Source: a virus
Virus record (IMG/VR): IMGVR_UViG_3300047409_000413
Coordinates: 1-35,666 of that record
DNA: 35,666 nt
Reading direction: 5' to 3' (one strand)
Shown: in pieces, positions 3,358 through 31,266 of the stretch
How positions within the stretch are numbered: position 1 is the first letter of the stretch
Layout of the letters: each line of letters opens with the position of its first letter
Translations under genes and position numbers: made by a program
The notes under the pieces: generated by a model
Databases searched by the model: none
Seen by the model: the letters and a program-made list of their open reading frames with translations, nothing else
Told to the model about the DNA's origin: nothing

Positions 3358-3990
3358 TCACCGCGCACCAGAGTTGAACTCACCGTAAAAAGCTGCGTTT
3401 GGCCGCGGCGTGTTGCGCATGTTTCGCGTGGTCTGCATGGCGATGGCTTGAGGTCTGCCAGCACCTGCACCGGACGAAGGACCGCGGAGACTAGCGCGCT
3501 TCTGTATTCCCGGCCCGCGGCGCGAGTCATTTGGCCGGGCTACGCTTCCTAATCTAGCACCGCTTCTTGGTCCGCTTGGATTCTTCACGGAACCTTGGGA
3601 CTGGACAATGCCAGGACCGCGGCGCGCGGGAAGAGTCGGCGACACACTCATAGGTCTCGAGCCGGCCGGTTTGGGAGCGGACCGCTGCACGGGCGGAGTC
3701 GGCGGTTTGAGACTGGTCTGCGGAGTCTCAAAGGAATCCGGTTCGCGTGGAGGCTGATCCTCGCTGGCTCCCATAAGAGCCGTGGTGCGCAGCACTTGGC
3801 CAGATGGAACTTTACCGGCGCCAGGGGAAGTGAAATTGTTGCTTTGCACTCGTTTCGGACTCGCTGCTTTCATTTGTGCCTCCACTTGCCTCTGAAGATG
3901 CGGACGAAGATGTGCCGGCGTCCGCGGACTGGCTGCGGCGCGGCGCATCCCTTCAAGCTTATGCTGATGCTGATTCGGTTGGCCGAACAT
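3358..3990 (-). CDS. Basic, Pro/Ser/Arg-rich disordered protein with AFYGEF C-terminus
   Basis: The protein is 210 residues from the ATG at 3990; a TTG at 4038 would extend it by 16 residues. It is strongly basic, low in hydrophobics and full of Pro, Ser, Arg and Gly (for example PTPPVQRSAPKPAG and RRGPGIVQSQGS), so it is almost certainly disordered. A GPGI element with flanking RR occurs twice. The C-terminus NAAFYGEFNSGAR carries the motif shared with three smaller neighbours. It begins inside the end of the epimerase gene. No known family is recognised; an internal virion or DNA-associated protein is a guess from composition. Confidence 0.6.
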   Translation of the reverse strand: MFGQPNQHQHKLEGMRRAAASPRTPAHLRPHLQRQVEAQMKAASPKRVQSNNFTSPGAGKVPSGQVLRTTALMGASEDQPPREPDSFETPQTSLKPPTPPVQRSAPKPAGSRPMSVSPTLPARRGPGIVQSQGSVKNPSGPRSGARLGSVARPNDSRRGPGIQKRASLRGPSSGAGAGRPQAIAMQTTRNMRNTPRPNAAFYGEFNSGAR

Positions 3991-4972
3991 TGACAGTTTC
4001 GACTTCCTTTGCAGCTTGCGCCCGAACTTGGCCCTCAATCCATTGATACGTCACCCACAGACCTTGTTCAAGCGATATTTTTGGTTCCCAGCCCTTTAAG
4101 ACCTTGCGGGCCATGGTATTGTCTGAATTCCGCCCGCGGACGCCTAGAGAGCCGTCTACATGCTTAATCTCGCATGGCCAGTCGGCTATCTTCATCAGCA
4201 TTTGGGCGAGTTCGTTGATGCTCACCGTGTAGTCGTTACCGATGTTGACCGCGCCGGAGTAGTCCGACTCCATCAGGCACTCGAGACCCTTACATACGTC
4301 GTCCACGTAAACGAATGATCGGCGTTGCAAGCCGTCGCCCCAGAGTTCAATTTCGTGTTTACCAGCCAACTTAGCCATGGCGATCTTTCGCGAGAGCGCT
4401 GCCGGCGCTTTTTCGCGACCGCCGTCCCAGGTCTCTTCTGGGCCATAGACGTTGTGGAATCGCGTGATCCGTGTAGTGAGCCCGTAATCCTTGGAGAAGT
4501 GTTCACAAAGCTTCTCCGTAGTCAGTTTCCCCCATCCGTAAGCCGCCTCGGGCAGCGCGGGATATACTTCCGACTCTTTCAATGGCGCCGCATCCACCGT
4601 CTCCTGGTTATACTCGGGATAAACACAAGCCGAAGATGAGTAGAGCAACCGCGGGACGTTAGCTTCTTTCGCGGCGCGCAAGACGTTCAAGTCAATCTGC
4701 AAACTGTTGTGCAGGATTTCCGCGTGGTGAGTTGAGATCCAGCCAATCCCGCCCATGTCGGCCGCCAAGTGATAGACGCGGTCCACGCCTTTTACTGCCA
4801 TCCAGGCTATGCCCAGTTTGCGGAGGTCGTTTTCGATGAATTCGTCGCACTCGTTTGCCGAGAATTCCGGCTGCTTAATGTCCACTCCGCGGACCCAGTG
4901 CCCTTGGGCTTTAAGGTGCCGGGTAAGCCAGTGGCCGATAAATCCGCCGGCGCCGGTTATGCTGATACGCAT
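3959..4972 (-). CDS. NAD-dependent sugar epimerase, GDP-mannose 3,5-epimerase-like
   Basis: This 337-residue extended short-chain dehydrogenase is close to the GDP-mannose 3,5-epimerase pattern, which makes GDP-L-galactose or GDP-L-gulose. Visible motifs are the NAD-binding GAGGFIG (7-13), HLAADMGGIGWI (68-79), the catalytic SSSACVYPE (112-120, candidate Cys116), YGWGK (Tyr145, Lys149), GGREKAP (184-190, candidate Lys188) and VRGRNSDNT (278-286). These are the family's diagnostic residues, including the active-site Cys/Lys pair. Full length is close to that of typical bacterial members. It overlaps the glycosyltransferase gene by 16 nt, so the two are probably co-translated and act on the same glycan. 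Other GDP-sugar epimerases remain possible. The last ~20 residues look like a low-complexity tail. Confidence 0.85.
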   Translation of the reverse strand: MRISITGAGGFIGHWLTRHLKAQGHWVRGVDIKQPEFSANECDEFIENDLRKLGIAWMAVKGVDRVYHLAADMGGIGWISTHHAEILHNSLQIDLNVLRAAKEANVPRLLYSSSACVYPEYNQETVDAAPLKESEVYPALPEAAYGWGKLTTEKLCEHFSKDYGLTTRITRFHNVYGPEETWDGGREKAPAALSRKIAMAKLAGKHEIELWGDGLQRRSFVYVDDVCKGLECLMESDYSGAVNIGNDYTVSINELAQMLMKIADWPCEIKHVDGSLGVRGRNSDNTMARKVLKGWEPKISLEQGLWVTYQWIEGQVRAQAAKEVETVNVRPTESASA

Positions 4973-5925
4973 TGTGCGAGTCCTACTTTCTGAAAGAGTT
5001 GCTCAAAGCGAAGTTCCATGGCGTGCTCGTCGCGGACGTATTCCGCAGCGAGTTCCCCGAAATGAGCATCGGCTTCTAGAGCAACGAGGATTTGCGCCGC
5101 GCATTGTTCTGGTGTCTCGTAAGCGAAATGATGGTGCATCCGTACAGGCTGTTTCGGACAGACAAGAGCACATCCACTCGCCATCGACTCGAGAATCTTC
5201 GCCACCAGCACATTGCTCAGGCTCGGAAACGTCACGAAGACCTGAATCCGCCGGTACTGCGAGGCCAGCAGTTCCGTGCTCTTTTCGACGTTGATTCCAT
5301 CTAGGTCTGATACTGTAATCGTTCCATTGCAGACTCGCATGTCAATCCCGCGGACGTGCTTCATAACTTCCCGGTAGAACCTTTCTCGCTTAGGGTACAT
5401 CAGTCCAATGAAAGCGCACGGCACGTCGCGCTCTGGATAGCAATGCCGAGGACCGCCGTGCGTGTCGGCATAATCCAGCGTTGCCGAACTCGCTAGGTCT
5501 CCAGGGTGAAACATCTTCGTATCAATTCCCAGCGGCAGGAACTCGCCTTTGTATTTCGCGGCATCGTCTTTGTCGGGGAAGAAATGGAAGTCCAGCCACG
5601 GCTTGTAGTCTTCGAAGTTTAATGAGTAGTCTTCGCGGACAAAGCTTTCGTGATACCAGCCGACCTTCGGAATCTTGAGGCCATCCCATCCTTTGTAAAA
5701 CTGTTTGATCCATGGACCCAGATGCTCGGGACCTGAAACCAGCAAGAGGTCATGGTCGGCGATGGGCTTATTGATCCGTTCCGCCTGGTCGCTGCGAATC
5801 TTTTGTACGGGCGGGATGGCAATCTCCGTCACCTGATGCCCCATGCGGGAGAGTACGCGCGCAAAGCCGCGGGACTGGCCCCATGAGGCGTAAGGCGAAT
5901 CGGAATAGAATGCTGCGATCTTCAT
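4957..5925 (-). CDS. GT-B-type glycosyltransferase
   Basis: This 322-residue protein has an N-terminal Rossmann-like half (MKIAAFYSDSPYASWGQSRG, then VLSRMGHQVTEI) and a C-terminal half with LPLGIDTKMF, VPCAFIGLMYPKRERF and FPSLSNVLVAKILESM. This 'F.SLSN..V.KILE.MASGC.LV' stretch is the nucleotide-sugar binding part of group-1-type glycosyltransferases. It should transfer a sugar from a nucleotide donor in the cytoplasm; the acceptor cannot be read from sequence. The start overlaps the upstream methyltransferase stop (ATGA). The epimerase immediately downstream suggests a GDP-sugar donor. The target could be host surface polysaccharide, phage DNA or virion protein. Confidence 0.8.
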   Translation of the reverse strand: MKIAAFYSDSPYASWGQSRGFARVLSRMGHQVTEIAIPPVQKIRSDQAERINKPIADHDLLLVSGPEHLGPWIKQFYKGWDGLKIPKVGWYHESFVREDYSLNFEDYKPWLDFHFFPDKDDAAKYKGEFLPLGIDTKMFHPGDLASSATLDYADTHGGPRHCYPERDVPCAFIGLMYPKRERFYREVMKHVRGIDMRVCNGTITVSDLDGINVEKSTELLASQYRRIQVFVTFPSLSNVLVAKILESMASGCALVCPKQPVRMHHHFAYETPEQCAAQILVALEADAHFGELAAEYVRDEHAMELRFEQLFQKVGLAQCVSA

Positions 5926-6443
5926 TCGATAATCCCCATTCCATAGCTTCCGCGCACAACAATGAACTTGCGCTTGGTTTGTTTGGCGTAACGCTCACAG
6001 GCCATCACCACCCCAGGATAGTCTGGCGCTTCGCAGTCGTGAACTAGAATCTTCTTGGCCCGCGGCCCGAAGTTCTCGAGGTCCGACATGCACCCTTCAT
6101 AGGTGTGATCGCCATCCACGAACAATAATTCTAGGTTGTCCGGAATCGCGGACTTGATGCGTGCGGCTTCTTTGATGCTGTCGGCGTGAAGGAATGTCCA
6201 GTGCGGATGGCCAGCGAAGATGTAAAAACAACTGGTTATATCCACGCTGTACAGGTGCCCGCTGCGGTCTTCGATTCCAGCCAGGAGTGCTGAGGTTGAG
6301 AAGCCTTGCCGTACTCCGATTTCGAGTACATTACCGGCGGACATTTCCCGCATCATGGGCAAGTGCTGCTGGATGTCGCTCCACATTGCCAAGTTCGCGG
6401 CGTAACGACTAGCGGCGGTTGGTTGAATAGTTTGGACGCTCAC
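5922..6443 (-). CDS. Class I SAM-dependent methyltransferase (Methyltransf_24 type)
   Basis: This 173-residue protein has the SAM-binding motif I NVLEIGVRQGFSTSALL (38-54), an acidic end of strand 2 (LYSVDIT), and LELLFVDGDHTYEGCMSDLE, typical of the Methyltransf_24 group. Members methylate small molecules or sugars, often within glycan clusters. It is joined by ATGA overlaps to the protein-methyltransferase gene before it and the glycosyltransferase after it, so the unit is co-translated. A sugar-decorating role is an inference from context. Confidence 0.8.
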   Translation of the reverse strand: MSVQTIQPTAASRYAANLAMWSDIQQHLPMMREMSAGNVLEIGVRQGFSTSALLAGIEDRSGHLYSVDITSCFYIFAGHPHWTFLHADSIKEAARIKSAIPDNLELLFVDGDHTYEGCMSDLENFGPRAKKILVHDCEAPDYPGVVMACERYAKQTKRKFIVVRGSYGMGIIE

Positions 6444-6943
6444 GCTTCGGCTCCGCGAGTGAATGGCGCATAGGCTGCGACTTCAATGCGCACCAGCTTA
6501 TCACCTTCCCGCTTGTGAACTTCAATGGCTGCGGAGTTTCCGCGCGCTACGGGAACAACCAAGATGCCTCCGTCCCGCAACTGATGGGCCCACATCGGAG
6601 AAATTCTATTCGCTTCAAAGGTCACGAGAACCGCGTCAAACTTTTCGCCAGAATCAAACTCGTAACCGTTGGCCATGACTAGCGCCACATGCGCCGGCAG
6701 TTTATCTGCTACGCCCGGATGCCTTTCCACGTCGATCGAGACGACTGACCGACAACGCTCTGCCAGTACCGCGGTCTGGTAACCGGAACCGGTCCCAATC
6801 TCGAGCACGTCTTGGGCATCGTCGCCGAGGAGTGAAGCTAGCAAGTAGGCCATCTCCGTCGTTGGAACGGTGCAGAGATCGTTAATCGGCACCGGGAATG
6901 GCGGATTCGAGCCGTCTGGCGTGAACTGGCAGCGGTCAATCAT
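6440..6943 (-). CDS. Protein-L-isoaspartate O-methyltransferase-like enzyme
   Basis: The protein is 167 residues from the ATG at 6943, chosen because it overlaps the preceding stop as ATGA; an in-frame ATG at 6958 would add five. It has the PCMT-type SAM site VLEIGTGSGYQTAVLAE with the upstream 'VPTTEMAYLLASLL' segment, then VVSIDVE and a 'LRDGGILVVPVARG' strand. PCMT enzymes methylate damaged isoaspartyl residues for repair. The family is usually slightly longer, so the N-terminus is compact. In a phage it could repair virion or host proteins, or have a changed substrate. Confidence 0.75.
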   Translation of the reverse strand: MIDRCQFTPDGSNPPFPVPINDLCTVPTTEMAYLLASLLGDDAQDVLEIGTGSGYQTAVLAERCRSVVSIDVERHPGVADKLPAHVALVMANGYEFDSGEKFDAVLVTFEANRISPMWAHQLRDGGILVVPVARGNSAAIEVHKREGDKLVRIEVAAYAPFTRGAEA

Positions 6944-7110
6944 GCGGCTATCTTCCACCCCTTTATGAGCTCATCCACCAGTAAAGTTATCGCTCGGTCG
7001 AGTCGTTCTTTCTGAATTCCGTACAAGATGCTCTTACTCTTTTCCTGCTTCATGCGATTACGCCACTGCCGAAGTAGCCAGTAGCAGTCAACTAGTTGCT
7101 GGGAGTTCAT
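6940..7110 (-). CDS. Small coupled protein, unknown function
   Basis: This 56-residue gene lies exactly between the terminase ATPase half and the PCMT-like gene, with ATGA overlaps at both ends. The sequence (MNSQQLVDCYWLLRQWRNRM, then KQEKSKSILYGIQKERLDRA) is helical and basic. It is not recognisable as terminase sequence. The perfect coupling on both sides is the main evidence that it is translated. It marks the left boundary of the ATPase-encoding gene. Confidence 0.55.
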   Translation of the reverse strand: MNSQQLVDCYWLLRQWRNRMKQEKSKSILYGIQKERLDRAITLLVDELIKGWKIAA

Positions 7111-8218: not shown

Positions 8219-8704
8219 TCAGTAGCCAGAACAGAACTGAAAGTGCATCGGATCCCGCCTACTTCCCGACCATATTCCGCCCCAAGTGAATCCGAAATCG
8301 TTGAATATCTTCACTACGCCAGGGTCCATGTGACCATCCGTGCCTTGCTGGTTAGTAGCTGGATTGAGATCAATCGCTATCCCCCAGGAATGAGTTGAAA
8401 GCTTGGTCGAACTGCGCTGCGGCCGGAAAGCAAAACATCCACCGTAGGAACTCACACTCGAGCGCAGCCCTTGCGTCAAGATTTCCGCAAACACGTTCTG
8501 AAAGGTCTCGACCAGTAGCTTGTGGCAGGTGATCTTCGAGACGCTTACGTTAAGGTTCCAAGCCAGCGGCATCGTAAACGGTAGATCAGCTTGCGCTAAG
8601 AACTGCGTCTGCCACTCTGGTTTTAAGTTTCCTGTCGGATCCAGATAGGCATGGATGTCGCCGAATTCCGCGATCAGCGCCGGTAATCCGTTAGGTGTAT
8701 TCAT
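8219..8704 (-). CDS. Endolysin, M15-family peptidase
   Basis: This 161-residue protein has the zinc-peptidase pattern of the M15 family (VanY/Ply-type L-Ala-D-Glu or D-Ala-D-Ala peptidases): STHSWGIAIDLN with His105 and Asp112, and DPMHFQF with His154. The upstream SYGGCFAFRP is the usual substrate-side segment. It should cut peptidoglycan stem peptides to lyse the host. There is no signal peptide, so export would need a holin; membrane-protein genes upstream (9406-9906 and 10145-10558) are candidates. The gene is complete and of usual length for single-domain M15 endolysins. Confidence 0.9.
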   Translation of the reverse strand: MNTPNGLPALIAEFGDIHAYLDPTGNLKPEWQTQFLAQADLPFTMPLAWNLNVSVSKITCHKLLVETFQNVFAEILTQGLRSSVSSYGGCFAFRPQRSSTKLSTHSWGIAIDLNPATNQQGTDGHMDPGVVKIFNDFGFTWGGIWSGSRRDPMHFQFCSGY

Positions 8705-8785: not shown

Positions 8786-8971
8786 TTAAGCTGGCGGCAA
8801 TTTGGCGTCGGCAATGATCTTGTTGTAAGTTGCGTCGGCATCGTCCAGGATGTCGTCGATGGCTTTGGTGCTCGCGCCCGAGAGAACGTTGCGCAAGTCC
8901 ATAATAGTTTTTGCGGCGAGTCCAGCCATTTGCTCTGCAAATAGTATGAGTTGAAGGGTTTGGGGGTTCAT
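8786..8971 (-). CDS. Small hypothetical protein in the lysis region
   Basis: This 61-residue protein (MNPQTLQLILFAEQMAGLAA then KTIMDLRNVLSG) is predicted helical and mildly acidic. Its ATG overlaps the previous stop as TAATG. It has no clear membrane segment or known motif. It sits between the lipoprotein and the endolysin, so a lysis-related role is possible by position only. Confidence 0.55.
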   Translation of the reverse strand: MNPQTLQLILFAEQMAGLAAKTIMDLRNVLSGASTKAIDDILDDADATYNKIIADAKLPPA

Positions 8972-9405
8972 TAGTGTCCTCCCACAGTCGCGGCGATGAT
9001 CGCTACCGAGGTCTCAGCGCCGGTGATAATAGTTGAAATCGTGAGTTTCAGGTTTGGGTTCTTGATTCCCGCAACGCCGCTTTGCTGTAATTCATTAAAG
9101 GCGTCGAGGAAAGCATTCACCTTGGTTGAAACGGTCGTCGCCGATTCGTTGGCGCGGATGCCTTTGTCGAGTGTGAGGCCGGCCATGGCGACTTTGCTTA
9201 GATAGCCCTCAAACTCGGCCTCGTCGGCTTGGGTGATGACACCTTGAACTACTGCGTCCCGTGCAGCGACTTGGGCATTCGCCAGGCTGTGCGCGATTGC
9301 GTCCGAAGCCACGGCGAGACGCTTGGTGCCGGTGCTGCAGGAGAATCCTGACAGCAAAATGGCAATGGTTAGAACGGTGATACAGGATGACACTCTTCGT
9401 CTCAT
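8971..9405 (-). CDS. Phage lipoprotein (possible outer-membrane spanin or exclusion protein)
   Basis: This 144-residue protein has an N-terminal basic stretch and hydrophobic segment ending in a lipobox, ILLSGFSC, so Cys23 would be lipid-modified. The mature part is helical and Ala/Thr-rich, with a hydrophobic C-terminal stretch (ISTIITGAETSVAIIAATVG). GGAGGG lies just before the ATG, which follows the previous stop with no gap. Outer-membrane spanins are small lipoproteins in lysis cassettes, but they are usually shorter and Pro-rich, so this is only one option; superinfection exclusion is another. Confidence 0.65.
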   Translation of the reverse strand: MRRRVSSCITVLTIAILLSGFSCSTGTKRLAVASDAIAHSLANAQVAARDAVVQGVITQADEAEFEGYLSKVAMAGLTLDKGIRANESATTVSTKVNAFLDAFNELQQSGVAGIKNPNLKLTISTIITGAETSVAIIAATVGGH

Positions 9406-9926: not shown

Positions 9927-10148
9927 TTACCACAAGAGATGCTTGAGCCAAGCGTACCAGCCGCTGCCATTGTCTTTTGGCGCGACTGTGAAGTCCAAGA
10001 CGGCCGGAAGTTCTTCCTCGGGAAGTTCTGGCGCATTCTTGATTTCAAGTTCTACTTCGACAACGTGCGTGTCCGGAGCGATCTGTTTCACTTTCCGAAC
10101 CGCGATTTTCTTGACTTTCGAATGGCGCTTGCTTTTCTTTGTGCTCAT
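9927..10148 (-). CDS. Small hypothetical protein, basic N-terminus
   Basis: This 73-residue gene has an ATG that overlaps the preceding stop (ATGA). The N-terminus is Lys/Arg-rich (MSTKKSKRHSKVKKIAVRKV), followed by an acidic strand-like segment (HVVEVELEIKNAPELPEEEL) and an aromatic C-terminus (GSGWYAWLKHLLW). The function is unknown; coupling to two membrane-protein genes suggests the same operon role. Confidence 0.6.
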   Translation of the reverse strand: MSTKKSKRHSKVKKIAVRKVKQIAPDTHVVEVELEIKNAPELPEEELPAVLDFTVAPKDNGSGWYAWLKHLLW

Positions 10149-10558
10149 GGTTGTTTGTCCCTCTCGCTCGCGGCTCCCTCTTTTCTGCCCTCGGCATGGG
10201 AAAGTCTCTCGCGTACTTCGGCCAGTTGAACGCTGACGTCGGTCAGTTTCTGGTTGGCCTGAGTGAGATTATTGTTCGTGTTGGTTTCCACCTGCTGCAT
10301 GGTGTCTTTTACTTCGCCAAGTTTCGAATGCAGACGTGCCTGATCTTCTTTCCGCAGTTGTTGATCTTCCTGCCGCTCGCGGCGGTCCGCGCGGTGCATC
10401 CAAAGTGCAACTCCGCCGCTGATCACCGCTGTGCTGACTGCGGTCGCACCTACGATCATCGCTACTTGCACAGACGGATCCAGGGCCACTGCTAAAACCG
10501 ATGCGAGGGCTAGCGCTAATCCAGCAACCTTCCACACGCCAATGTGCGCGATGGTCAT
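10145..10558 (-). CDS. Membrane-anchored coiled-coil protein, possible holin or inner-membrane spanin
   Basis: This 137-residue protein has two close hydrophobic segments (VAGLALALASVLAVAL and VAMIVGATAVSTAVISGGVAL). A long charged coiled coil follows from about residue 55 (ADRRERQEDQQLRKEDQARL onward) and runs nearly to the C-terminus. The topology resembles phage proteins that span the inner membrane and extend a helix, such as i-spanins, or a two-TM holin with a tail. Both ends are coupled by ATGA overlaps. The exact role is not decided. Confidence 0.6.
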   Translation of the reverse strand: MTIAHIGVWKVAGLALALASVLAVALDPSVQVAMIVGATAVSTAVISGGVALWMHRADRRERQEDQQLRKEDQARLHSKLGEVKDTMQQVETNTNNNLTQANQKLTDVSVQLAEVRERLSHAEGRKEGAASERDKQP

Positions 10559-13500
10559 CTGAAACTCGCCACCCCGGCAATCGCGTTAGAAAGCGCCACC
10601 ACATCTGCCCCTGGGTCTTTGCCATCTAGACCCGTGTTATGGCATGGGCTAGTTGATTTCACGGCATAATTCAAGACGCCTGCGGGTCCGTTAAAACCTC
10701 CGTTGTAGTTTACGAAAATGTTGGCCAAACTGGTTTCGGATGTGCAGTTCGTTCCCGGCCACAGTGGCCCCGAACCGTTTACGAGCGCATTGCCGCCAAA
10801 CTTATAAGTTGTAAAACACGCATTCAGGACCGTGGTGGGATTGGAATTTCCGCAGAAGCAATTTGCCACGGGTGTTTGTGAGCATCCATCCGAGGGATTG
10901 TTGATCGGGTTTGAACCTGGATTATTGAGCGGCTCACGCAGAATCAGGTTGTTGGTCCAGGTGTAGTCGGTCATCTGTAGACCGGAACTCGCTAGAGGCC
11001 CCGATACTCCAAGCGTCCCGCCCATTGTGAAAGCACTGGCCGAAGGAATGTACGAATTGTGATTTACGAAGACGTGTTTCAGGACATCGGTGGAAGGAAC
11101 CGCCGCGCCCGTAATGACTCCGCCGTCAAGCGCGGCGCCCGAGTTCGTGCCGCACTTATAGCAGGTCGGGTAATTCGTGTTTTCGCAGACGTTGTCGTGG
11201 ATTGAGTAAGAGTTCCCAGCCGTTGCATATCCGCCCGCGTCTCCAGCGGCGTTCGCTATCTGAAAGCAGTTGTTGCTGGTGGTGAAAAAGTTGTATCGAA
11301 CCGTGAAATTCGTGACAAAACAGTTCGAACAGACGCTGACGCCATTGATCGCTTGATTCTTCGGAGTAAAGAGAATGTGGGAGCCAATTTGGGAAAATCC
11401 TGCCCACACTCCATCGAACACGTTGGCTTCAACAAAGAACCGGTCAGAATTCTTTGATTCGAGACTCTGTTTGACGACAAACGTTGTCCCAAAGAACGTC
11501 GGCGATAAAGGATTCCAGATTTGCAGCTTTTGTCCCCAGTTCAAGCGGAACTCAATATCTGCCGGCGTGTTGCTGGCTGCTCCTCCCCCTAATCCCACCG
11601 TCGTATTGTCGGCGCTGGTTATGTAGTTGTTGACAATCTTCCAAGTATGGTCCTGAGTCGTCGTGAGTGTGCTGTAGCCTCCCGAGAAAGCCTGATTAGC
11701 CGAGCAGGGACCGCCTACGACGCAATGGAAGTCGGTTGCCAGTCCATTCACCCATGCAAAATTACTTATCCCATTCATCGTCAACACACGTTGGGTGTCG
11801 TCCGTGGCCGTCCCCGCAGCCCAGTCGGAATCGAATACGATGTGGTCCATGTTCGCCACTTCACTCTTGATCAGGCGGGCGATGTACCCGCCTCCAACCG
11901 TGCGCGTGATCTTGGTGCCTTGTATCTTTAGGTAAGAAGTTGGAGCGGTCAGAGTTAAAGGAATTCCAGTTCCGGTGCTCTGGATCGTGATTCCAACATT
12001 CGCAACCGGCGCCGTCCCAAACGAGGGATAGCCTGGGAGTGACGATACTCCCCAATGGTGCGGACTGACCCCGCGGATAGTTCCGTAGGCAGGGAAGTTG
12101 GTAGCGAATCCCGTCGGCCTAAGAGTGCGATAATGGGCCGCATCGCATACCAGTGCCGGAATAACGAATTGGCCAGAGAGAACCGTACCTGGCGCAACTT
12201 CGACGACGTCCCCGCAAAGAGTTGCTGCCCAGACTGAGGTCCAGGTCGCCGCGGTCGCCACCCTGACGGTTCCAGGAGATGGCGTTGAAGCTGGAGATGT
12301 GTTGTAGCAGGTGAGCGGCAGTTGCGCCGTGGCGTCGGTAGATCCCCAAGTAGGAGAACCTGCAGGACAATAGAGGTCCACCCCGCCGACCGCTGGCCGG
12401 GTTGCGCAGGCTAAAGTCGTGTTTCCAGAAACCGCACCGATTGTAGCCGAAACGACGGACGAGCCGACGGTGAGGCAATTCAGTATCTGGGTGGTTCCTA
12501 AGGCACCCAAAGAGGCTACCGCGGGCGTCCCGCTGGCCCATGTAGAGGTTACGGTAACATTCTGCACCGTTCCATCAGAATAAGTCCCGTTGGCCGTGAA
12601 ACCTTGCGTAGAGCCAACATACTGGGTTGGGGTGAGTGGACTGACGGCGATCGAGACCAAGGTCACTGGATTGGCTATGCAGGTGATCGTTGTGTTGCCG
12701 GAGATGCCTCCTACCGTGGCTGAAATTGCGCTTGTCCCTGCCGCTATGCAGTTCACTGACTGGACGGTCGTCAAAGCTCCTAGAGTCGCATGCGTGGGCG
12801 TCCCGCTGGCCCAAGCGGACGCCTTCGTGACGTCTGAGGTCGAACTGTCGCTGAAAGTCGCCGTGGCAATGAAACTGAATGACGAACCGACGGAAATCGA
12901 AGGATTGCTCGGCGTTACGGCGATTGTGGTAATGATCGGAGGAGGCGCCGCCAAGCAGGTTAGCGTGGTAGAACCGTTTACCGCTCCGATAGTTGCCCTG
13001 ATGACACTCGTCCCAGCCGACCCGCAAATAACGATTTGTTGTGTGGACAAGGTTCCTAAGGTCGCCACACCCGTGGATGCGCTGTTCCAAGTTGATGACG
13101 CTGTAACGTCTTGAGTGCTCGAGTCGCTGAATGTCCCCGTGGCGATGAAACCGATGCTCGAGCCAACTTGCACGGATGGCAAAGCAGGAGTCACAGCGAT
13201 AGATACCAGGGTCGGCACGGGAACCACGCAGTTAACGGTCGTATTCCCGGAAACCGCCGCAATTGTCGCCGAAATGACGCTGGTCCCGCTAGCAACGCAG
13301 TTGACCGCCTGAGTAGTCGTTAGCGGCCCAAGAGTCGCATGGGAAGGAGTCCCACTGGCCCACACCGCGGTTTGGGTCACATTCTGCTGTGAACCGTCGG
13401 AGAACGTACCCGTCGCAATAAAGGCAATCACTTGGCCTACGTTAACCGTCGGAGTTGCCGGCGTGACCGCGATACTCACTAACGGATTCACGCAGGATTG

Positions 13501-16044
13501 AGTCGTATTCCCGTGAATCGCTCCGACCGTGGCTGTGATGACCGAGGATCCAACAAGATTGCATGTTCCGAGTTCCGGATTCGTCACCGGAGAGCCCATG
13601 GTGACGATGGTTGGAGACCCAGATACCCAGGTTGCGGACGATGTCACGTTCTGCGTGGTGCCGTCAAAAAAGGTCCCGGTAGCCACGTAACTGACACTGG
13701 AGTGCAGATTTACTGTGGGGCTGGCCGGGGACACCGAAATGCTGACCAGAGGATTAACGCAGGTCTGTGTCGTACTTCCGACGATTGCGCCGACGGTGGC
13801 CGTAACGGTTGAAGATCCCGAGGCAGCACACAAGGCAGTCTCCGGCTTAGTGACCGGGGACTGCACCGTGACCACAGAAGGAGAGCCAGCCGCCCACACC
13901 GCGGTTAAAGTCAGGTCCTGGGTGGAATTATCGTTGTAGTGTCCTGTGGCTAGGTAGCTGGCGCTCTGGCCAATATTGACCGCGGGGTTGGTCGGAGCTA
14001 CCGAAATACTGACCAGCGTCGGGAGCGGAGCCACAGCGGTGCACGCCTGAGAACCGTTTACGGAAATGGTTCCCACCGTGGCTGTAATGGTCGCGGTGCC
14101 GACGATATTACAGAGAACAGTTTCCGGATTCGTAACCGGAGAGCTCACCGAGGCAACCGCGGTGTTACTCGAGCTCCAGACCGCCGACAGAGTTAAATTC
14201 TGCGTGCTTCCGTCGAAAAATGTGCCCGTGGCAATATAGCTGGCGCTGGTTAAGATCGTGACCGAAGTGCTGGAGGGCGATATGGCGAGACTGACCAGCG
14301 GGTTTACGCAAGTCTCAGTTGTGCTTCCATGGACTGTCCCAATGGTCGCTGTGATGTTCGAAGAGCCCGTGATCTTGCAGGTTCCGAGTTCTGGATTTGT
14401 GATCGGCGAACCCATAGCAACGACGCCCGGCGAACTCGAGCCCCAAGTCGCCGCCAGGGTTACATTCTGGGTAGTGCCATCCGAATAGGTTCCGGTCGCT
14501 ATGTAACTCGCCGCGGTGTTTACGTTCACCGAAGGATTTGCCGGCGTCACATTGATCGAAAGAAGAGTGGGCGCGATGACCGTGCAGCTATAGCCCGTAG
14601 AGCCGCTTACTGTTCCAACGACCGCGGTAATTACCGTCGAGCCAGAAGAAACGCAGTTCACTGACTGACTGGTTGTAGGAGATCCGGAAAGAGACGCGAC
14701 GGCGGTATTCGAACTGCTCCACACCGATTGCGAACTCACATTTTTAACAGACCCATCAGAATACGTTCCGGTCGCGGTGAACGGTTGCGACAGACCGATT
14801 TTACCGATGGCCAGGGGCGGATCGACTTCAATGCTCGATAGAGTCGCCACGCAGGTTAGCGTTGTGTGATTATTGACCGCGCCCACGGCCGCTGAGATTT
14901 GACTGGTCCCCGCGGTCTTGCAGTTGATCGGTTGCGGATCGCCAAAGGCTCCCACCGTCGCCACTGCGATAGTGGCTGAGGTCCAGGTCGCGCTATTTGT
15001 AATGTCTTTGGTCGAACCGTCCGAATAAGTTCCGGTGGCTATAAACCCAGCACTTTGGCCCACGCTGATAGAAGGCGATGCCGGGGTGACGACTAAAGAG
15101 GTCAGCGTCGGCGGAGGGTTGACGCAGGAAAGCGTTGTGTTTCCTGCAATCGTGGCCAAGGTCGCTGTAATGACGCTCGAGCCAGAGGTCACGCACTTTA
15201 CGTTCTGCTGTGCGCCTAATGTTCCAAGCGTGGCGACAGCCGGCGTTCCGCTAGTCCACACTGTCAAGGGGGTGACGTCTTTGCTGGTGCCGTCGTTGTA
15301 AGTTCCAGTGGCTAGGAATCCGAGAGATGATCCGACATTCAGGCTGGGAGTTGTGGGCTGGACAGCCACACTGACCAAACTCGCAACGCAGGTCAAAGTC
15401 GTACTCGAGTTCACGATTCCGACCGCGGCGGTGATTAAACTAGTCCCGCCGTGAATGCAGTTCACCGCTTTCGCTGTCGTCACCGCGCCCAAGGTGGCAT
15501 TTGCCAGCGTCCCAGAAATCCATGCCGCAGAACCGGTAAGGTCCTGGGTTGAGCCATCACTAAAATGGCCGGTGGCTGTGAAACCTACCGCCTGGCCAAC
15601 ATTCTGGGTTGGGGAAGTCGGCGCGAGTGTAATGGTATTCAGGGTAGGAGGTAGAGGCGGGGGAGCGGTGGTGCAGGTCAGCGGCGCGGAGCCGTTTGTC
15701 ATAGCGTAGGAAGCTATAATCTGTACCGACCCGCCAGAAACGCAGTTCACGTTTTGAACGGTAGTCCGCGGCGCAATTGTCGCAATCGAAGTGTTTGAAC
15801 TCGTCCATGAGACATAGGGCGTGAAGTCTTGACTGCTTCCGTCCGAATAGTTTCCCGTGGCTGTGACGCCTACCGACTGGCCGACGGTTTGGGTTACCGG
15901 GTTGACTTGGACAGTGATCGAAATAAGGTTGATGGGCTGCTGAATCGTCGTCAGACCAGAAGCAAGACCTTGGCCATTGAGCGTGGTCGATCCTTGGCCA
16001 AAGACCGCGCCGCACAGCACGAGAATGAGGAATAATTGTTTCAT
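10555..16044 (-). CDS. Giant secreted fibre/adhesin: signal peptide, 13 Ig-like domains, beta-helix C-terminus
   Basis: The 1829-residue protein begins with a Sec signal peptide (MKQLFLILVLCGAVFGQ). It continues with 13 tandem bacterial Ig-like domains of about 88-94 residues, roughly residues 40-1220, each with the pattern 'S/NVG..., F.ATGTYSDGSTQ-V, W-S, VATLG' and two cysteines (one in '..VNC', one in 'TLTC' near the end). The C-terminal ~600 residues (from GVDLYCPAGSPTWG) are Asn/Gly-rich with short strands (for example ITRTVGGGYIARLIKSEV and YSIHDNVCENT), as in right-handed parallel beta-helix proteins that bind or cut polysaccharides. It is placed like a tail fibre, before the lysis genes. 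The signal peptide and probable disulfides are unusual for a virion protein, so a secreted phage-encoded adhesin is an alternative. Confidence 0.8.
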   Translation of the reverse strand: MKQLFLILVLCGAVFGQGSTTLNGQGLASGLTTIQQPINLISITVQVNPVTQTVGQSVGVTATGNYSDGSSQDFTPYVSWTSSNTSIATIAPRTTVQNVNCVSGGSVQIIASYAMTNGSAPLTCTTAPPPLPPTLNTITLAPTSPTQNVGQAVGFTATGHFSDGSTQDLTGSAAWISGTLANATLGAVTTAKAVNCIHGGTSLITAAVGIVNSSTTLTCVASLVSVAVQPTTPSLNVGSSLGFLATGTYNDGTSKDVTPLTVWTSGTPAVATLGTLGAQQNVKCVTSGSSVITATLATIAGNTTLSCVNPPPTLTSLVVTPASPSISVGQSAGFIATGTYSDGSTKDITNSATWTSATIAVATVGAFGDPQPINCKTAGTSQISAAVGAVNNHTTLTCVATLSSIEVDPPLAIGKIGLSQPFTATGTYSDGSVKNVSSQSVWSSSNTAVASLSGSPTTSQSVNCVSSGSTVITAVVGTVSGSTGYSCTVIAPTLLSINVTPANPSVNVNTAASYIATGTYSDGTTQNVTLAATWGSSSPGVVAMGSPITNPELGTCKITGSSNITATIGTVHGSTTETCVNPLVSLAISPSSTSVTILTSASYIATGTFFDGSTQNLTLSAVWSSSNTAVASVSSPVTNPETVLCNIVGTATITATVGTISVNGSQACTAVAPLPTLVSISVAPTNPAVNIGQSASYLATGHYNDNSTQDLTLTAVWAAGSPSVVTVQSPVTKPETALCAASGSSTVTATVGAIVGSTTQTCVNPLVSISVSPASPTVNLHSSVSYVATGTFFDGTTQNVTSSATWVSGSPTIVTMGSPVTNPELGTCNLVGSSVITATVGAIHGNTTQSCVNPLVSIAVTPATPTVNVGQVIAFIATGTFSDGSQQNVTQTAVWASGTPSHATLGPLTTTQAVNCVASGTSVISATIAAVSGNTTVNCVVPVPTLVSIAVTPALPSVQVGSSIGFIATGTFSDSSTQDVTASSTWNSASTGVATLGTLSTQQIVICGSAGTSVIRATIGAVNGSTTLTCLAAPPPIITTIAVTPSNPSISVGSSFSFIATATFSDSSTSDVTKASAWASGTPTHATLGALTTVQSVNCIAAGTSAISATVGGISGNTTITCIANPVTLVSIAVSPLTPTQYVGSTQGFTANGTYSDGTVQNVTVTSTWASGTPAVASLGALGTTQILNCLTVGSSVVSATIGAVSGNTTLACATRPAVGGVDLYCPAGSPTWGSTDATAQLPLTCYNTSPASTPSPGTVRVATAATWTSVWAATLCGDVVEVAPGTVLSGQFVIPALVCDAAHYRTLRPTGFATNFPAYGTIRGVSPHHWGVSSLPGYPSFGTAPVANVGITIQSTGTGIPLTLTAPTSYLKIQGTKITRTVGGGYIARLIKSEVANMDHIVFDSDWAAGTATDDTQRVLTMNGISNFAWVNGLATDFHCVVGGPCSANQAFSGGYSTLTTTQDHTWKIVNNYITSADNTTVGLGGGAASNTPADIEFRLNWGQKLQIWNPLSPTFFGTTFVVKQSLESKNSDRFFVEANVFDGVWAGFSQIGSHILFTPKNQAINGVSVCSNCFVTNFTVRYNFFTTSNNCFQIANAAGDAGGYATAGNSYSIHDNVCENTNYPTCYKCGTNSGAALDGGVITGAAVPSTDVLKHVFVNHNSYIPSASAFTMGGTLGVSGPLASSGLQMTDYTWTNNLILREPLNNPGSNPINNPSDGCSQTPVANCFCGNSNPTTVLNACFTTYKFGGNALVNGSGPLWPGTNCTSETSLANIFVNYNGGFNGPAGVLNYAVKSTSPCHNTGLDGKDPGADVVALSNAIAGVASFR

Positions 16045-16415
16045 GGAATCACGCGCACGTTAAAAGTTGTTGCGGTCGGAGTGACAATAAGCAGACCGCA
16101 TTCCCACACTGTGACTGTGTTTGCCGAAGTGACTTGCGCCTGCCACTGAATCCCGTTTGCCATCGAAGTTCCGCTGGCTGGCGAAACAATTGCCGCCATG
16201 CTGGTAGTTGCACCGGGTACGTTGACGGTAGCTGTGTTGCAGGTTCCGAGCGTCAATCCACCAGAGATTGAACCGCTGGCCGCGCTAAGGACTGGCCCTG
16301 ATTGCCCGTAGGAGCGCCCACTATTCGAGTTGTAGGTTTGCGCGGCGAACAATGCGCCAACCCACAAAAGTCCACAAATAGCCCTAAGTGCCCATGCACT
16401 GAATTGAAATTTCAT
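16041..16415 (-). CDS. Secreted small protein with tail-fibre-tip-like domain
   Basis: This 124-residue protein has a signal peptide (ICGLLWVGALFAAQ) and a Gly/Ser-rich linker. Its compact beta domain (GTCNTATVNVPGATTSMAAI, later VTVWECGLLIVTPTATTFNV) resembles the short C-terminal domain often found at the end of phage tail fibres. Two cysteines in the domain could pair. It overlaps both neighbours: 32 nt with the gene before and ATGA with the giant fibre gene after. A separately exported fibre-tip domain would be unusual; it may form a complex with its neighbours. Confidence 0.65.
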   Translation of the reverse strand: MKFQFSAWALRAICGLLWVGALFAAQTYNSNSGRSYGQSGPVLSAASGSISGGLTLGTCNTATVNVPGATTSMAAIVSPASGTSMANGIQWQAQVTSANTVTVWECGLLIVTPTATTFNVRVIP

Positions 16416-19400
16416 ATGTCTTCCCAGTCGTCGGCGTAGCGTTCCATTGGAAGGTGTATGCCGTTGCCGATCTTGCCGTGACCGTCAAGTCTCCAATGAT
16501 GTCATTGCCCCCGGTCTGAATCGCCGCGCAGACTGGCACCTGCAACCAAGTTCCATTGTGGAAGGTGATCTGGTAAGTGGGATTGGCCGCGATTCCAGTT
16601 CCGCCGGTGGTGATGGTCGTCACGCTGGCTTGATCTTTGCTGGTGGCCACAGTGATCGCGGTTGCCGCCGTGCTTCCCCAGCCCGCTCCGAGGGTAAAAT
16701 CTCCCGTTATTAGAGTGCTGGATTTGTCCACGTCGTAACGTACCGAGCTTGTCCCTCCGGTTGCGTTCTGGGTTGGTGCTGTCGCTCCGTCCCCAGCTAG
16801 TGCCTTGTCGTCCAAAGTTAAAGAGCAGTTGGTCAGCCCTGGGCCGTTGGTCAAAAAGTCAGACGATGGGTTGATAGAGCCGATCTTCCCTTGCGTGGCT
16901 CCGCCTACGGTTCGATAGACATCAACCCTGGTGTAAGCCAAGACCTGCCCACCGCTGCAAAAACTCACGGAAATCCGGTTGAAATTATTGGTATCTAGCG
17001 TAGCGTTGCCGGTCGTCGTGGTTCCTGCCGCGCTGGCCCCGGTTCCTTGTCCGTTTCCGTCAATGCCCATGACCTTGTAGGTATAGGTTGTTGATCCGGG
17101 TGTGCCGATGTTTGCCACCCCGCCGTTGTTGAATGTCGGGACGGCAAGCTGTACCGTATTGATAGAGCCGGTATCAGATACCGACCCGAGGAAGCCTAGC
17201 GTACCGGAGTCCGTTACCAACGCGGGGCTAGATGCAAAATAATGCGACCCCATCCATTTGCTCTTGGCAGTCGCGTCGGAACGGATGGCGAAATCAAGCG
17301 TGGAACTGGAAAACCCGGACTCAAGATAGACTCCCATGTTCTGAGTAGCAAAGCGCGTCGTGGGGGACTTGGCATACAGGGCTACGCTTTGCCCGTTAGT
17401 ATTGCCAGCACTTCCATTGGTTGAGCCAACAACTCCGGCATAAACTAAGCCCGCACCATTTTGACTGCCTACCGTTTCCTGCGATGCGGTCCCCACTATG
17501 CCTGCTACAGCGGGAAGGCCAGTAATGGCGGGACTAGCCACATCAGTTGCAGCCGTGGCGTGTAACCCGATAATTGGGATGCCGTGAGCGCCCGCTGTCC
17601 TTTGGTCGTCGGTTCTAACCCGAACCGCCGCCACGCAATCTTCTCCAACCATCGGACCGCCTACGGGCTGGCAGTTGAAATTGTTGTTGTAAATGAATTG
17701 CTCACCGTAGATGCCTAGCCATTGGTGATACCATGGGCTTCCGGTAGGCTGGTCGGTTCCACGAAAGGCGATGACTCGATCATCTGCGCTGCCATCGGTG
17801 CTGATTTTGGTGGTTCCATTTCCTCCAATGTGGGAGAAGCTGACAAGCGCGTTACGAATCAATCCTCCGCCCGCCTGCGTGGCCTCGGTAATATTCTGGT
17901 TGCTGTCGGTGACAAAGAAGCGGTGCCAAAATTCAAAGGTGCCATCAGGAGTTGGGAGCGGCGTTCCTACGGAGAAGTCCATGCCTGCGAGGGGATAATA
18001 ATTACCGTCAGCCTTGGGGAAGAACAGACCTGGAATTCCGCCGTGAGGAACCAAGGTGTTAGCCTGAATGTTAGGCGGTTGGATATAGGCTGTGCTCGTG
18101 GTTGGGGGTTGACCGCTGGACGTAACAGCGGTGATGACGCAATTGCCGGTAATATTCACACATGCACCGGTGGCGGTCTGTTTGTGATAGAGCGCGTCAC
18201 TAGAAGCATCGTTGGCGTACACCGTGTACCCGGTGTAGCCTGCTGGAATCGTGGGGGCGGTAACGGTTACAGAACATGAGTTGCCGCCGCTGCAACTGGA
18301 AGAAGAAACTACCGCCGAAGTTGCGCTTACGGTCGTCTCCCCTGCGGCGCTCACGAATGTAAACTGCACGGAAATTCCGTGAGAATTGAGAATACTCCCA
18401 CCGGTAGTCGAGATCGCCACCGCAGCAGGGACAATTCCCGGACTAAGCCACATTTGCGACCCAGCCACTTGTCCGATGTTGAGCGGGGAAAGCGATGAGC
18501 CTGTGCTGTTCTGCATGTTGGCGGTTGTGTTTACGCCCGACGTGATAGCAGAGAATGCCGCGCTTACTGTCTTGCATGTCCCATCGCCGAATAAAGCATG
18601 CGTTGAATCGCAGGTTCCTGTCCACAGCGCAATTAAATCTGCGCTAGTAGCAACCCGAGTTATATTGAGAGACGACCGGAAGACGACGCCATTGGCTCCA
18701 GGATCGCCCAGTGAAGCTGTTGGCGGATTCGTATATCCAATCTGATAAAGTCCAGCTCCCGGATTTGAAGCCACCGAAAGACCTTGGCCGACGGTCGGAA
18801 GAGTGGAAGGCAGCAAGAAAAGGTAAGGGGAATTGACCGAGGTTCCAACGCCCCATCCCGCGCTGTTGGCCGGCGGAATTGTCGGCAGTCCTCCGGTGGC
18901 GGTCCAGACAATATTCCCTGGACCAGTGCCGTTGACGCGCACTCCCTGCAGTGTGGCCACACCTAAATTCAAAGTAGCGAGCGGGTCGCACAATCCCGAG
19001 TAATAAAGAATCGCGCCCGCCAAACTGCAATTGAAATTGACTCCGCCGGCACCGTTGATTCCTAGAACCGTGGCTCCAGTGAAGTCATACGTCCCAAAAA
19101 AGAACGCAGTTGTCCCTAGCGGCTGGTTCCATGTTTGGTTCTTGACTGCGTTGCCGAAAATGGACGTGAAGCCAGGCGCTGGAGGGGTGATGGTATCCGG
19201 TTGGGAAGTCCCAGCGTCAAAGGTCTGGCCAGGAACATTCGAGCAACCTAGCGTAGTCCCCACTGCGATCGAGCAGATATTATAGCGTTCGGCCGCATTC
19301 AGCGGGGTCGCGCCATCTTTCATGGGCGTGACTAGCCAGCGGGTTGAGGCCACATTGCCGCAGAGGATTTCATCGTTGGGGATGATTTTCCCGGTGACGT

Positions 19401-19629
19401 TTCCGTTTACGTCGGCCTTGAAGTCTATCTGCTTTTTGACGATGACCAGCGAGGAGAAGGTGTAGCGCGGGAAGTTGGCGCCGCAGTTCCAGAGCTCGAA
19501 GCGCAGACTGGATCCGGAGATCGGATTTCCAGCACCGTCGGTTATTTTTCCGGAGACGGTTACAGTTTGGGAAAAGGCGGGGAGAGCGAAGAGGAGAAAC
19601 GCGAGGACGCGGAGGCTGCGCATGCTCAC
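16384..19629 (-). CDS. Large secreted tail-fibre-like protein
   Basis: This protein of 1081 residues starts at a GTG at 19629, or an ATG at 19623 two codons later. The signal peptide (RSLRVLAFLLFALPAFSQ) is followed by a transthyretin/carboxypeptidase-regulatory-like beta domain (VSGKITDGAGNPISGSSLRF, to about residue 130). The long rest is Gly/Thr/Asn/Ser-rich with repeated strand-turn patterns, typical of fibres, and ends in a beta domain (YTFQWNATPTTGKTYEISIQ). It contains many cysteines, unlike cytoplasmically assembled fibres. It probably recognises the host surface, either on the virion or as an exported factor. The next two genes also have signal peptides, so the three form a secretory unit. 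Confidence 0.75.
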   Translation of the reverse strand: MSMRSLRVLAFLLFALPAFSQTVTVSGKITDGAGNPISGSSLRFELWNCGANFPRYTFSSLVIVKKQIDFKADVNGNVTGKIIPNDEILCGNVASTRWLVTPMKDGATPLNAAERYNICSIAVGTTLGCSNVPGQTFDAGTSQPDTITPPAPGFTSIFGNAVKNQTWNQPLGTTAFFFGTYDFTGATVLGINGAGGVNFNCSLAGAILYYSGLCDPLATLNLGVATLQGVRVNGTGPGNIVWTATGGLPTIPPANSAGWGVGTSVNSPYLFLLPSTLPTVGQGLSVASNPGAGLYQIGYTNPPTASLGDPGANGVVFRSSLNITRVATSADLIALWTGTCDSTHALFGDGTCKTVSAAFSAITSGVNTTANMQNSTGSSLSPLNIGQVAGSQMWLSPGIVPAAVAISTTGGSILNSHGISVQFTFVSAAGETTVSATSAVVSSSSCSGGNSCSVTVTAPTIPAGYTGYTVYANDASSDALYHKQTATGACVNITGNCVITAVTSSGQPPTTSTAYIQPPNIQANTLVPHGGIPGLFFPKADGNYYPLAGMDFSVGTPLPTPDGTFEFWHRFFVTDSNQNITEATQAGGGLIRNALVSFSHIGGNGTTKISTDGSADDRVIAFRGTDQPTGSPWYHQWLGIYGEQFIYNNNFNCQPVGGPMVGEDCVAAVRVRTDDQRTAGAHGIPIIGLHATAATDVASPAITGLPAVAGIVGTASQETVGSQNGAGLVYAGVVGSTNGSAGNTNGQSVALYAKSPTTRFATQNMGVYLESGFSSSTLDFAIRSDATAKSKWMGSHYFASSPALVTDSGTLGFLGSVSDTGSINTVQLAVPTFNNGGVANIGTPGSTTYTYKVMGIDGNGQGTGASAAGTTTTGNATLDTNNFNRISVSFCSGGQVLAYTRVDVYRTVGGATQGKIGSINPSSDFLTNGPGLTNCSLTLDDKALAGDGATAPTQNATGGTSSVRYDVDKSSTLITGDFTLGAGWGSTAATAITVATSKDQASVTTITTGGTGIAANPTYQITFHNGTWLQVPVCAAIQTGGNDIIGDLTVTARSATAYTFQWNATPTTGKTYEISIQCMGT

Positions 19630-19928
19630 ACGAAAACGGGAAAGGCTTCCCAGTTCTGCTTGCTGCCAAACGGCTTTGGGTCGGATGTCAAATCACGTAC
19701 TGGGTACGTTGAAAGGGCGCAGTCTGGCATCCCGGCTGGATTGAGAATCCCTGAATCGTAGTAGTGTGTGACGCTTTTGAGAGCCAGCACTATTGGCTTG
19801 CTGATCATTTCGTGGAGACCGCGATCGACGCGCCGCGAGAATCCAGCGGCAAGAATCATCTCAGCGATGCGCTTCTTGACCTGGTACTCGGTTCCGTCTA
19901 GTTCACGGATGGTTATTTTGGCAGACAC
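19626..19928 (-). CDS. Small hypothetical protein upstream of the fibre genes
   Basis: The frame is open from about 20009 (TTG) to 19626. The GTG at 19928 is chosen because the conserved-looking part starts there (SAKITIRELDGTEYQVKKRI, then AEMILAAGFSRRVDRGLHEM), giving 100 residues. No strong ribosome site is visible. The stop overlaps the GTG of the large fibre gene. A promoter at 20015-20043 would place its transcript start about 80 nt upstream. The function is unknown; a chaperone or connector for fibres is a guess from position. Confidence 0.5.
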   Translation of the reverse strand: MSAKITIRELDGTEYQVKKRIAEMILAAGFSRRVDRGLHEMISKPIVLALKSVTHYYDSGILNPAGMPDCALSTYPVRDLTSDPKPFGSKQNWEAFPVFV

Positions 19929-20014
19929 TGGTTGCTTGGTTGGTTTGGTAACCCGATATCCGGCGGGCGTCCGGGCAAAACATCTACAGGCTGTGGGCGT
20001 GGCACCCAATACGG

Positions 20015-21173: not shown

Positions 21174-21716
21174 TTACCGATATTTGAGTCCCTGGAATCC
21201 CCCCTTTAGGTGTACTGCCGTTCCGTAAGTTGAACCAATGTAAGCTAACCAGCCAGCTTTCTTGGGGAAGTGAGCATGCTGGACCAAAATGTCAAATCCG
21301 GTCATGACCGCAAACGGTATCAAGTCGTTGCGATACATTTCGCCACGCGATTCGTAGGCTCCGCCGCGGGGTACATCCGAACCGCCTTCGATGCAGGTGC
21401 CTTTAGCTTCGCAGTGCTGCGTCATTTCCACGTCAAAGACGATAGAGCCGAGAAAGACGGCGTGGGCGGCGACGAACTTCTTGGTAAAGGTCTTTTGCTT
21501 GGGCGGGTCGCCGGCGGCATCGTGCATCCAAGCGCCATGTGGTAAGCGCTTGACGGGCTCCGGAGCATCCGGGAACTGGTTCCCGTACTGAGATGATCCC
21601 GGCACCTGCGCAAAGCCGACTCCGACCAGCAAAAGCACAGGCAAAATCTTTTTCAGCGGCCGAGTCCAACTCCAACGGCTAATCAAACAGACAAACCACT
21701 CGAGAATCTTTCTCAT
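21174..21716 (-). CDS. Exported or membrane protein with signal-like N-terminus
   Basis: The protein is about 180 residues from the ATG at 21716, which has GGGAGGA 8 nt upstream; an ATG at 21725 sits on that ribosome site. A hydrophobic segment ends LPVLLLVGVGFAQ, like a signal peptide cleaved before Gln. The rest contains FPDAPEPVKRLPHG and a later hydrophobic stretch (FAVMTGFDILVQ). The signal style equals that of the fibre proteins. No family was recognised; it is probably periplasmic or surface-located. Confidence 0.55.
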   Translation of the reverse strand: MRKILEWFVCLISRWSWTRPLKKILPVLLLVGVGFAQVPGSSQYGNQFPDAPEPVKRLPHGAWMHDAAGDPPKQKTFTKKFVAAHAVFLGSIVFDVEMTQHCEAKGTCIEGGSDVPRGGAYESRGEMYRNDLIPFAVMTGFDILVQHAHFPKKAGWLAYIGSTYGTAVHLKGGFQGLKYR

Positions 21717-22000
21717 AGTACACATCCTCCCTGGATGTAATCCATCCGACCAGCTTCTGAATAGCCCAATCTACGGGTTTGCTCTTGCTCAGTTTCGCAA
21801 CGCACTCGGTAGTGAATCGCGCAGTAAGAGAGGCTGGTCCGCGAGTCCGAGATTAGTGCCGAAGATTCGCACTCTTCTGCTTGGCAGTGGCCGCAGAGGT
21901 TAGAGGGGAAATCGTGGCGCAGGACGACCGCGCGTTCGATGCCAAACAATTTCTCGATTAGCTTGCCGGAGTATTCCGGAAGGAGAAGGATTGTGCTCAC
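21713..22000 (-). CDS. Small cysteine-containing phage protein
   Basis: The protein is 95 residues from a GTG at 22000 overlapping the preceding stop (GTGA). It contains LCGHCQAEECESS and later SYCAIHYRVRC, a spaced Cys/His set that could bind zinc. It lies in the chain of coupled small genes. The function is unknown. Confidence 0.5.
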   Translation of the reverse strand: MSTILLLPEYSGKLIEKLFGIERAVVLRHDFPSNLCGHCQAEECESSALISDSRTSLSYCAIHYRVRCETEQEQTRRLGYSEAGRMDYIQGGCVL

Positions 22001-28305: not shown

Positions 28306-28363
28306 AACGCTAGAAATTGGTTTTGGTCTATGAAGTTGAGCACGAAAGAGAGCATCGCGGGAG

Positions 28364-30235: not shown

Positions 30236-30290
30236 GTTCGGAGACGTAATCTTTAGAAAATAGCGAGGCGGGGGAAAAGGAGAAATGAAC

Positions 30291-31264: not shown

Positions 31265-31266
31265 CG

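Follow-up and report, generated by a model that had tools for sequence, protein, structure and literature searches.

Three fiber-like proteins with predicted export signals and paired cysteines in a fragment of a soil phage

The IMG/VR virus record IMGVR_UViG_3300047409_000413, positions 1 to 35,666 (the window, that is, the whole 35,666-nucleotide stretch that was analyzed), is a fragment of a soil phage with three fiber-like proteins, P1, P2, and P3, that bear export signals and paired cysteines. From their predicted signals and cysteine patterns, all three are very probably exported out of the cytoplasm. We propose, with middling confidence, that they are disulfide-bonded spike or fiber proteins that meet virions at lysis, probably in an acidobacterial host. 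What the sequence itself supports are the signals and their host type, the signature of paired cysteines, the homologies, and the gene neighborhoods. The features in question are as follows.

16384-19629, minus strand: P3, fiber-like, 1,081 amino acids, start codon GTG; predicted signal at residues 1-20, cut before Q21; 18 mature cysteines
19060-19569, minus strand: P3 N-terminal domain (residues 21-190), present in the related phage module L004 and nearly absent from Acidobacteriota genomes
16387-16749, minus strand: P3 C-terminal domain (residues 961-1081, ~120 amino acids), matched at 86% identity by part of a signal-bearing gene in the phage L002/L003
16041-16415, minus strand: P2, 124 amino acids; predicted signal ending in A, directly before QTYNS; 2 mature cysteines
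10555-16044, minus strand: P1, 1,829 amino acids; predicted signal at residues 1-16, cut before Q17; 13 immunoglobulin-like (Ig) domains; C-terminal beta-helix; 44 mature cysteines
12385-15912, minus strand: array of 13 Big_2 Ig domains of P1 (residues 45-1220), each with a Cys-X22-Cys pair
10558-12372, minus strand: putative right-handed C-terminal beta-helix of P1 (residues ~1225-1829), with homologs among signal-bearing Acidobacteriaceae proteins and phage spike-like genes and a weak fold match to PL6 and RbmB

An earlier, sequence-only reading of the window had placed three translationally coupled proteins here, and the open reading frames (ORFs) are present at those coordinates, with overlaps of 32 bases at the P3/P2 junction and 4 bases (ATGA) at the P2/P1 junction. 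The chain of overlaps extends in both directions, by 4 bases from the upstream ORF 19626-20009 into P3 and by 4 bases from P1 into a downstream holin-like ORF (10145-10558).

The predicted N-termini are MKQLFLILVLCGAVFG/QGSTT in P1, MKFQFSAWALRAICGLLWVGALFAA/QTYNS in P2, and MRSLRVLAFLLFALPAFS/QTVTV in P3 (the slash marks the predicted cleavage), the P2 signal being the weakest of the three. Signals were called with a purpose-written rule-based score, by which the Sec-type N-termini claimed for all three proteins are present, tripartite and with small residues at −3 and −1. The score flagged 19 of 47 genes in ten phage loci with such modules and 0 of 47 genes of at least 400 amino acids in control phage stretches (T7, P22, and the first 50 kb of Tunturi 3, 4, and 5), a contrast that describes the class and not its frequency, because the ten loci were picked for carrying such genes. 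Signals are kept in homologs from L004, L007, L003, and the cultured phages Tunturi 1 and 2, where the sequence-only reading had named their absence as the result that would count against it. In the three homologous modules (window, L004, and L007), the signal has the same position in all main genes.

Among 42 phage signals, 31 have a glutamine immediately following the small residue at −1, compared with 19 of 44 signals from random Acidobacteriota stretches (L166-L179) and 5 of 64 from other bacteria (P = 1e−12 for phages and P = 3e−5 for Acidobacteriota, each against other bacteria). Among Acidobacteriota signals of Ig loci, the count is 31 of 56, and a glutamine cyclotransferase (PF05096) is found in 41 of 149 Acidobacteriota genomes. 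A similar +1 Gln preference, the Q-rule, is described for Bacteroidetes in a paper that does not cover Acidobacteria (PMC5837995). Because a +1 preference is shaped by events after cleavage, it hints at actual cleavage of the signals in such hosts, and the pattern is most naturally explained by signal peptidase I cleavage in an acidobacterial-type host. The window's host is probably an acidobacterium, a reading drawn from homologs and the +1 Gln signature only. The claim of export is strengthened by the recurrence of signals in homologs, the host-type +1 Gln, and even mature cysteine counts far above chance. Comparable sets of genes recur beside head, tail, and lysis genes in other phages, probably of Acidobacteriota, and this suggests that some phages route spike-like proteins through host secretion.

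The Ig array of P1 matches Pfam family Big_2 (PF02368; E = 2.4e−20, 72.7 bits, curated cutoff 22.8). The sequence-only reading had described 13 Ig-like domains with two cysteines in fixed positions, and we found the same: the 13 repeats hold 26 cysteines, spaced by 23 within the pair in 13 of 13 repeats and by 65 to 72 between pairs, and both are invariant in a repeat alignment with a mean column identity of 56%. In an AlphaFold2 model of one repeat (predicted local distance difference test [pLDDT], 95), Cys59 ends the strand at residues 55-59 and Cys82 lies within the strand at residues 74-83. The top match of this model is Leptospira LigA/LigB (Z = 14.6). The same fold is also found in the phage lambda tail tube and in mycobacteriophage Douge proteins and is, therefore, uninformative on location by itself. 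The Cys-X22-Cys pair was seen in none of 550 bacterial Big_2 repeats (79 bacterial loci), but L004 and L007 each have it in their one aligned Ig domain. With the pair missing from all of the bacterial repeats, we dropped simple copying from host Big_2 repeats as the origin of the array.

The mature cysteine counts of P1, P2, and P3 are all even. Even counts were found in 31 of 36 signal-bearing phage proteins (P = 1.3e−5; the parity P values are optimistic, since proteins related within a single phage are partly dependent), in 26 of 47 long signal-less ORFs of the same phage loci, and in 35 of 48 signal-bearing Acidobacteriota proteins. DsbA-family genes are present in 35 of 60 Acidobacteriota genomes. 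Signal-bearing and signal-less beta-helix proteins cannot be told apart by their richness in cysteine alone, and the evidence was therefore limited to parity and fixed spacing.

The C-terminal region of P1 aligns over ~600 amino acids with chromosomal proteins of Acidobacteriaceae at 30 to 33% identity (best E = 1e−76). Several of these homologs bear signals, and some lie beside polysaccharide-type genes, their neighbors including deacetylase-like and glycosyltransferase-like ORFs (read from sequence). Relatives of the beta-helix, with or without signals, are found in 36 viral contigs; a K..E.K motif is invariant in the alignment, and the Pfam family Beta_helix matches 1 of 9 relatives. In the beta-helix tree, host and phage copies are interleaved, with at least 4 changes, and P1 falls into a group with L101 from a host and L134 from a phage (100/98). 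In L130, a signal-bearing beta-helix gene lies between the terminase and the portal/major capsid protein (MCP) genes, and in L151 a signal-less one occupies the matching slot. A model of the domain (pLDDT, 58) gave Foldseek matches to PL6 lyases, RbmB, and phage tailspikes (E = 1e−4 to 1e−2). The earlier suggestion that the module resembles acidobacterial secreted proteins and was captured from a host is supported for this beta-helix, given its best homologs in signal-bearing Acidobacteriaceae proteins and the interleaved tree. It is not supported for the Ig array, whose cysteine pair was absent from the bacterial repeats, and for P3, which has almost no host homolog.

Relatives of P3 were found in other phages. 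L004 (IMG/VR 3300005529_000039) encodes a signal-bearing protein of 570 amino acids that matches the P3 N-terminus (41% over 258 amino acids), and its gene is followed, with a 4-base overlap, by a gene for a signal-bearing Ig and beta-helix protein of 1,492 amino acids. The same pair is present in L007 (IMG/VR 3300050821_010293), with a protein of 776 amino acids and then one of 1,061 that is cut short by the contig end; a gene upstream of the pair has a weak match to a virion structural family. In L002/L003, which are one phage, another signal-bearing gene comes after the signal-bearing gene with the P3 C-terminal domain. The two are preceded by a portal gene (family match) and a MuF-like gene, and prohead protease-like and MCP-like genes come after them, all but the portal being read from sequence and gene order. 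The gene with the P3 C-terminal domain (L003:9458-10367) has an apparent frameshift near 10190: the tblastn match extends to 10361, the ORF in the same frame ends at 10249, and L002 is identical there. The P2 N-terminus is weakly similar to a signal-bearing protein of 177 amino acids in L003.

In host sequences, the P3 C-terminus gave one weak hit, and 396 Acidobacteriota genomes yielded two hits to the P3 N-terminus, both weak or partial (L094 and L095). Neither of these two was taken as a full host homolog: L094 is a piece of the family from a damaged locus in a metagenome-assembled genome of Acidobacteriaceae, possibly a prophage remnant, and L095 is a weak match to the signal and first strand only. 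We found no significant tblastn match to P1, P2, or P3 among 50,697 phage records and no blastn match to the P3-P2 stretch. IMG/VR scans with P2, the P3 N-terminus alone, the P1 beta-helix alone, or Tunturi gp12 returned no relatives, and a search with the P3 N-terminal alignment recovered only the L004 contig.

Signal-bearing genes of this kind are also present in cultured phages of Tunturiibacter. The podoviruses Tunturi 1 and 2 have five between a tail gene and the endolysin gene (gp12, gp13, gp14, gp16, and gp17, with 20, 10, 20, 1, and 32 mature cysteines, respectively, in Tunturi 1), of which gp14 is annotated as tail spike/pectin lyase. In Tunturi 4, a siphovirus unrelated to Tunturi 1 and 2, signal-bearing gp111, gp113, and gp114 adjoin the terminase and carry the annotations "tail fiber," "tail protein," and "virion structural." The annotated start of Tunturi_4 gp111 (PP885687, ~80076-80432; L165:4077-4433) is probably 119 codons late, and the upstream frame gives a signal, MNRISKAIGLCALALSVGSSYGQ. 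Tunturi 1 gp17 combines a signal with beta-helix-type repeats and, toward its C-terminus, a region resembling the Ig domains of the window; Tunturi 4 gp114 is ~50% identical to part of this protein. The paper describing these phages does not mention signal peptides, and its main text has no virion proteomics (PMC11924767). In Tunturi 1, 2, and 4 and in L130, the signal-bearing genes adjoin packaging, head, or tail genes. Separately, about eight signal-bearing genes stand in a row at L164:2437-13641, and upstream of them is the gene for a transglycosylase-bearing virion protein (a match to a lytic tail protein). The sequence-only reading was right to draw a contrast with signal-less virion fibers, but the module is not the only one of its kind, as signal-bearing fiber-like genes are found in several unrelated phages.

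Around P1 to P3, the window has the following neighbors.

10145-10558, minus strand: P4, holin-like membrane protein (weak evidence), overlapping P1 by 4 bases; the lysis group starts here
8219-8704, minus strand: endolysin, which puts the fiber module beside lysis
21174-21725, minus strand: protein of 183 amino acids upstream of P3, with another signal peptide ending in A before Q

Between the holin-like and endolysin genes is a lipoprotein-like ORF (SGFSCSTG; 8971-9405, minus strand), possibly an outer-membrane spanin. A nucleotide-sugar epimerase-like gene near the lysis region (3959-4972, minus strand; phrog_540, E = 2e−77) makes a sugar modification possible. Four DNA methyltransferase-like genes lie at 27571-33727 (plus strand), among them tandem phrog_56 members (28364-29299 and 29293-30216), and two further methyltransferase pieces lie at 5922-6958 (minus strand).

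We suggest that P1 to P3 would be made late in infection as a translationally coupled set, cross the inner membrane via Sec, and lose their signals by a presumed cleavage before Gln, after which they would fold and, presumably, oxidize in the periplasm. In P1, the 13 Ig domains, locked by disulfides, would form a stiff stalk, the beta-helix may bind or, if enzymatically active, cut host exopolysaccharide, and P3 and P2 would serve as fiber or adaptor. Lysis would then mix the compartments, and completed virions would acquire the mature proteins as receptor-binding or depolymerase spikes, attachment being the most conjectural of these steps. With less assurance than for the window itself, we conjecture that a class of tailed phages of Acidobacteriota has fibers or spikes that are Sec secreted, oxidized and N-terminally processed in the periplasm, and joined to virions only at lysis, with disulfide locks that would be impossible in the cytoplasm.

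Several points weigh against virion attachment. Until lysis, an exported protein has no access to virions that are built in the cytoplasm, and we found neither a tailed-phage precedent for an export-then-attach route nor virion proteomics for any of these phages. Signal-bearing tail fibers of tailed phages were not reported in the literature searched, coverage of which was partial; cytoplasmic synthesis without a signal is characteristic of a tail fiber or tailspike, and P1 to P3, with their predicted signals, depart from it. The Tunturi tail and spike annotations are depositors' predictions, the beta-helix was modeled with low confidence and matches lyases only weakly, and no recognizable head or tail genes were seen in the window to tie the module to a structural operon. 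Nearly as much is accounted for by the main rival, a module that modifies polysaccharide, is exported, and never enters the virion: the proteins would cut or coat exopolysaccharide at the host surface or matrix and aid release or spread or exclude phages. It draws on the closeness of the P1 beta-helix to signal-bearing Acidobacteriaceae proteins, some near polysaccharide-type genes, on the weak fold match to RbmB, the Vibrio cholerae lyase of Vibrio polysaccharide, and on the position of the module directly before the lysis genes. The closest published idea also favors it, namely, that signal-bearing genes of unknown function in Porphyromonas gingivalis phages follow the Q-rule and were proposed to be outer-membrane modifiers (PMC10367356). 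Yet many genes of the class are fiber-like, with several predicted tail proteins in isolates; the signal-bearing beta-helix of L130 replaces a signal-less one between terminase and portal; and a run of up to five fiber-like proteins exceeds the need of a single exported enzyme. We regard the rival as possible rather than probable. Of the two readings, gene position and fiber-like makeup favor virion attachment at lysis, although attachment itself is conjectural.

It is improbable that the N-termini are unused as signals and that P1 to P3 are ordinary cytoplasmic fibers or spikes whose signals are leftovers of host capture or tail anchor peptides. Ordinary phage capsid and tail proteins do share the Ig fold, and signal-less versions of the beta-helix do occur in phages, but the signals are kept across diverged phages, also on genes without known host homologs (P3; Tunturi gp12 and gp13), and neither +1 Gln nor even cysteine counts are expected of unused peptides. 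Temperate phages are known to have exported proteins of the lom and bor kind, and P1 has a host-derived domain in its beta-helix, so that P1 to P3 could be lysogenic-conversion genes, like those of lambda, that add surface fibers to the lysogen. This, too, is quite unlikely: no integrase or repressor was recognized among the window genes scanned, P1 to P3 share a strand with the lysis genes and are coupled to them, and Tunturi 1 and 2, which carry five of these signal-bearing genes, are outside the isolates with reported recombinase or integrase genes (PMC11924767).

If P1 to P3 are virion parts, a periplasmic step would be added to textbook tail assembly, and disulfide-stabilized spikes would become possible; if they are not, the secretion of large polysaccharide-directed proteins in runs would be an under-described late phage function. 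The cultured Tunturi 1, 2, and 4 make the virion question directly testable, and the +1 Gln signature could help to assign hosts to uncultured phages.

The modules most like that of the window are L004 and L007, which share its order of a signal-bearing fiber gene and, after a 4-base overlap, a signal-bearing Ig and beta-helix gene, as well as the Ig cysteine pair; they differ in having one cysteine-paired Ig domain instead of 13 and no P2 counterpart between the genes. Tunturi 1 and 2 (gp12-gp17) and Tunturi 4 (gp111, gp113, and gp114) likewise have runs of long, cysteine-rich, signal-bearing fiber- or spike-like genes by tail, lysis, or terminase genes, but without overall homology and with another domain order. 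The P. gingivalis phage genes are similar in encoding phage proteins with host-type +1 Gln signals; those phages, however, are temperate and infect Bacteroidota, and the genes, five of unknown function, are read as outer-membrane modifiers, not as fiber or spike runs. Leptospira LigA/LigB and other Big_2 surface proteins have the Ig fold in common with P1 but lack the Cys-X22-Cys pair in the aligned sequences shown. The Acidobacteriaceae beta-helix proteins (L101, L120, L126, and L102) are homologous to the P1 C-terminus and have N-terminal export signals, lipoprotein-like in at least one, whereas they are chromosomal, some in apparent polysaccharide loci, and have no cysteine-paired Big_2 array. 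Tailspike depolymerases, such as gp49 of Acinetobacter phages APK14 and Fri1, resemble P1 in their beta-helix (a weak fold match) and, presumably, in a polysaccharide target but, unlike the signal-bearing P1, are assembled in the cytoplasm without signals.

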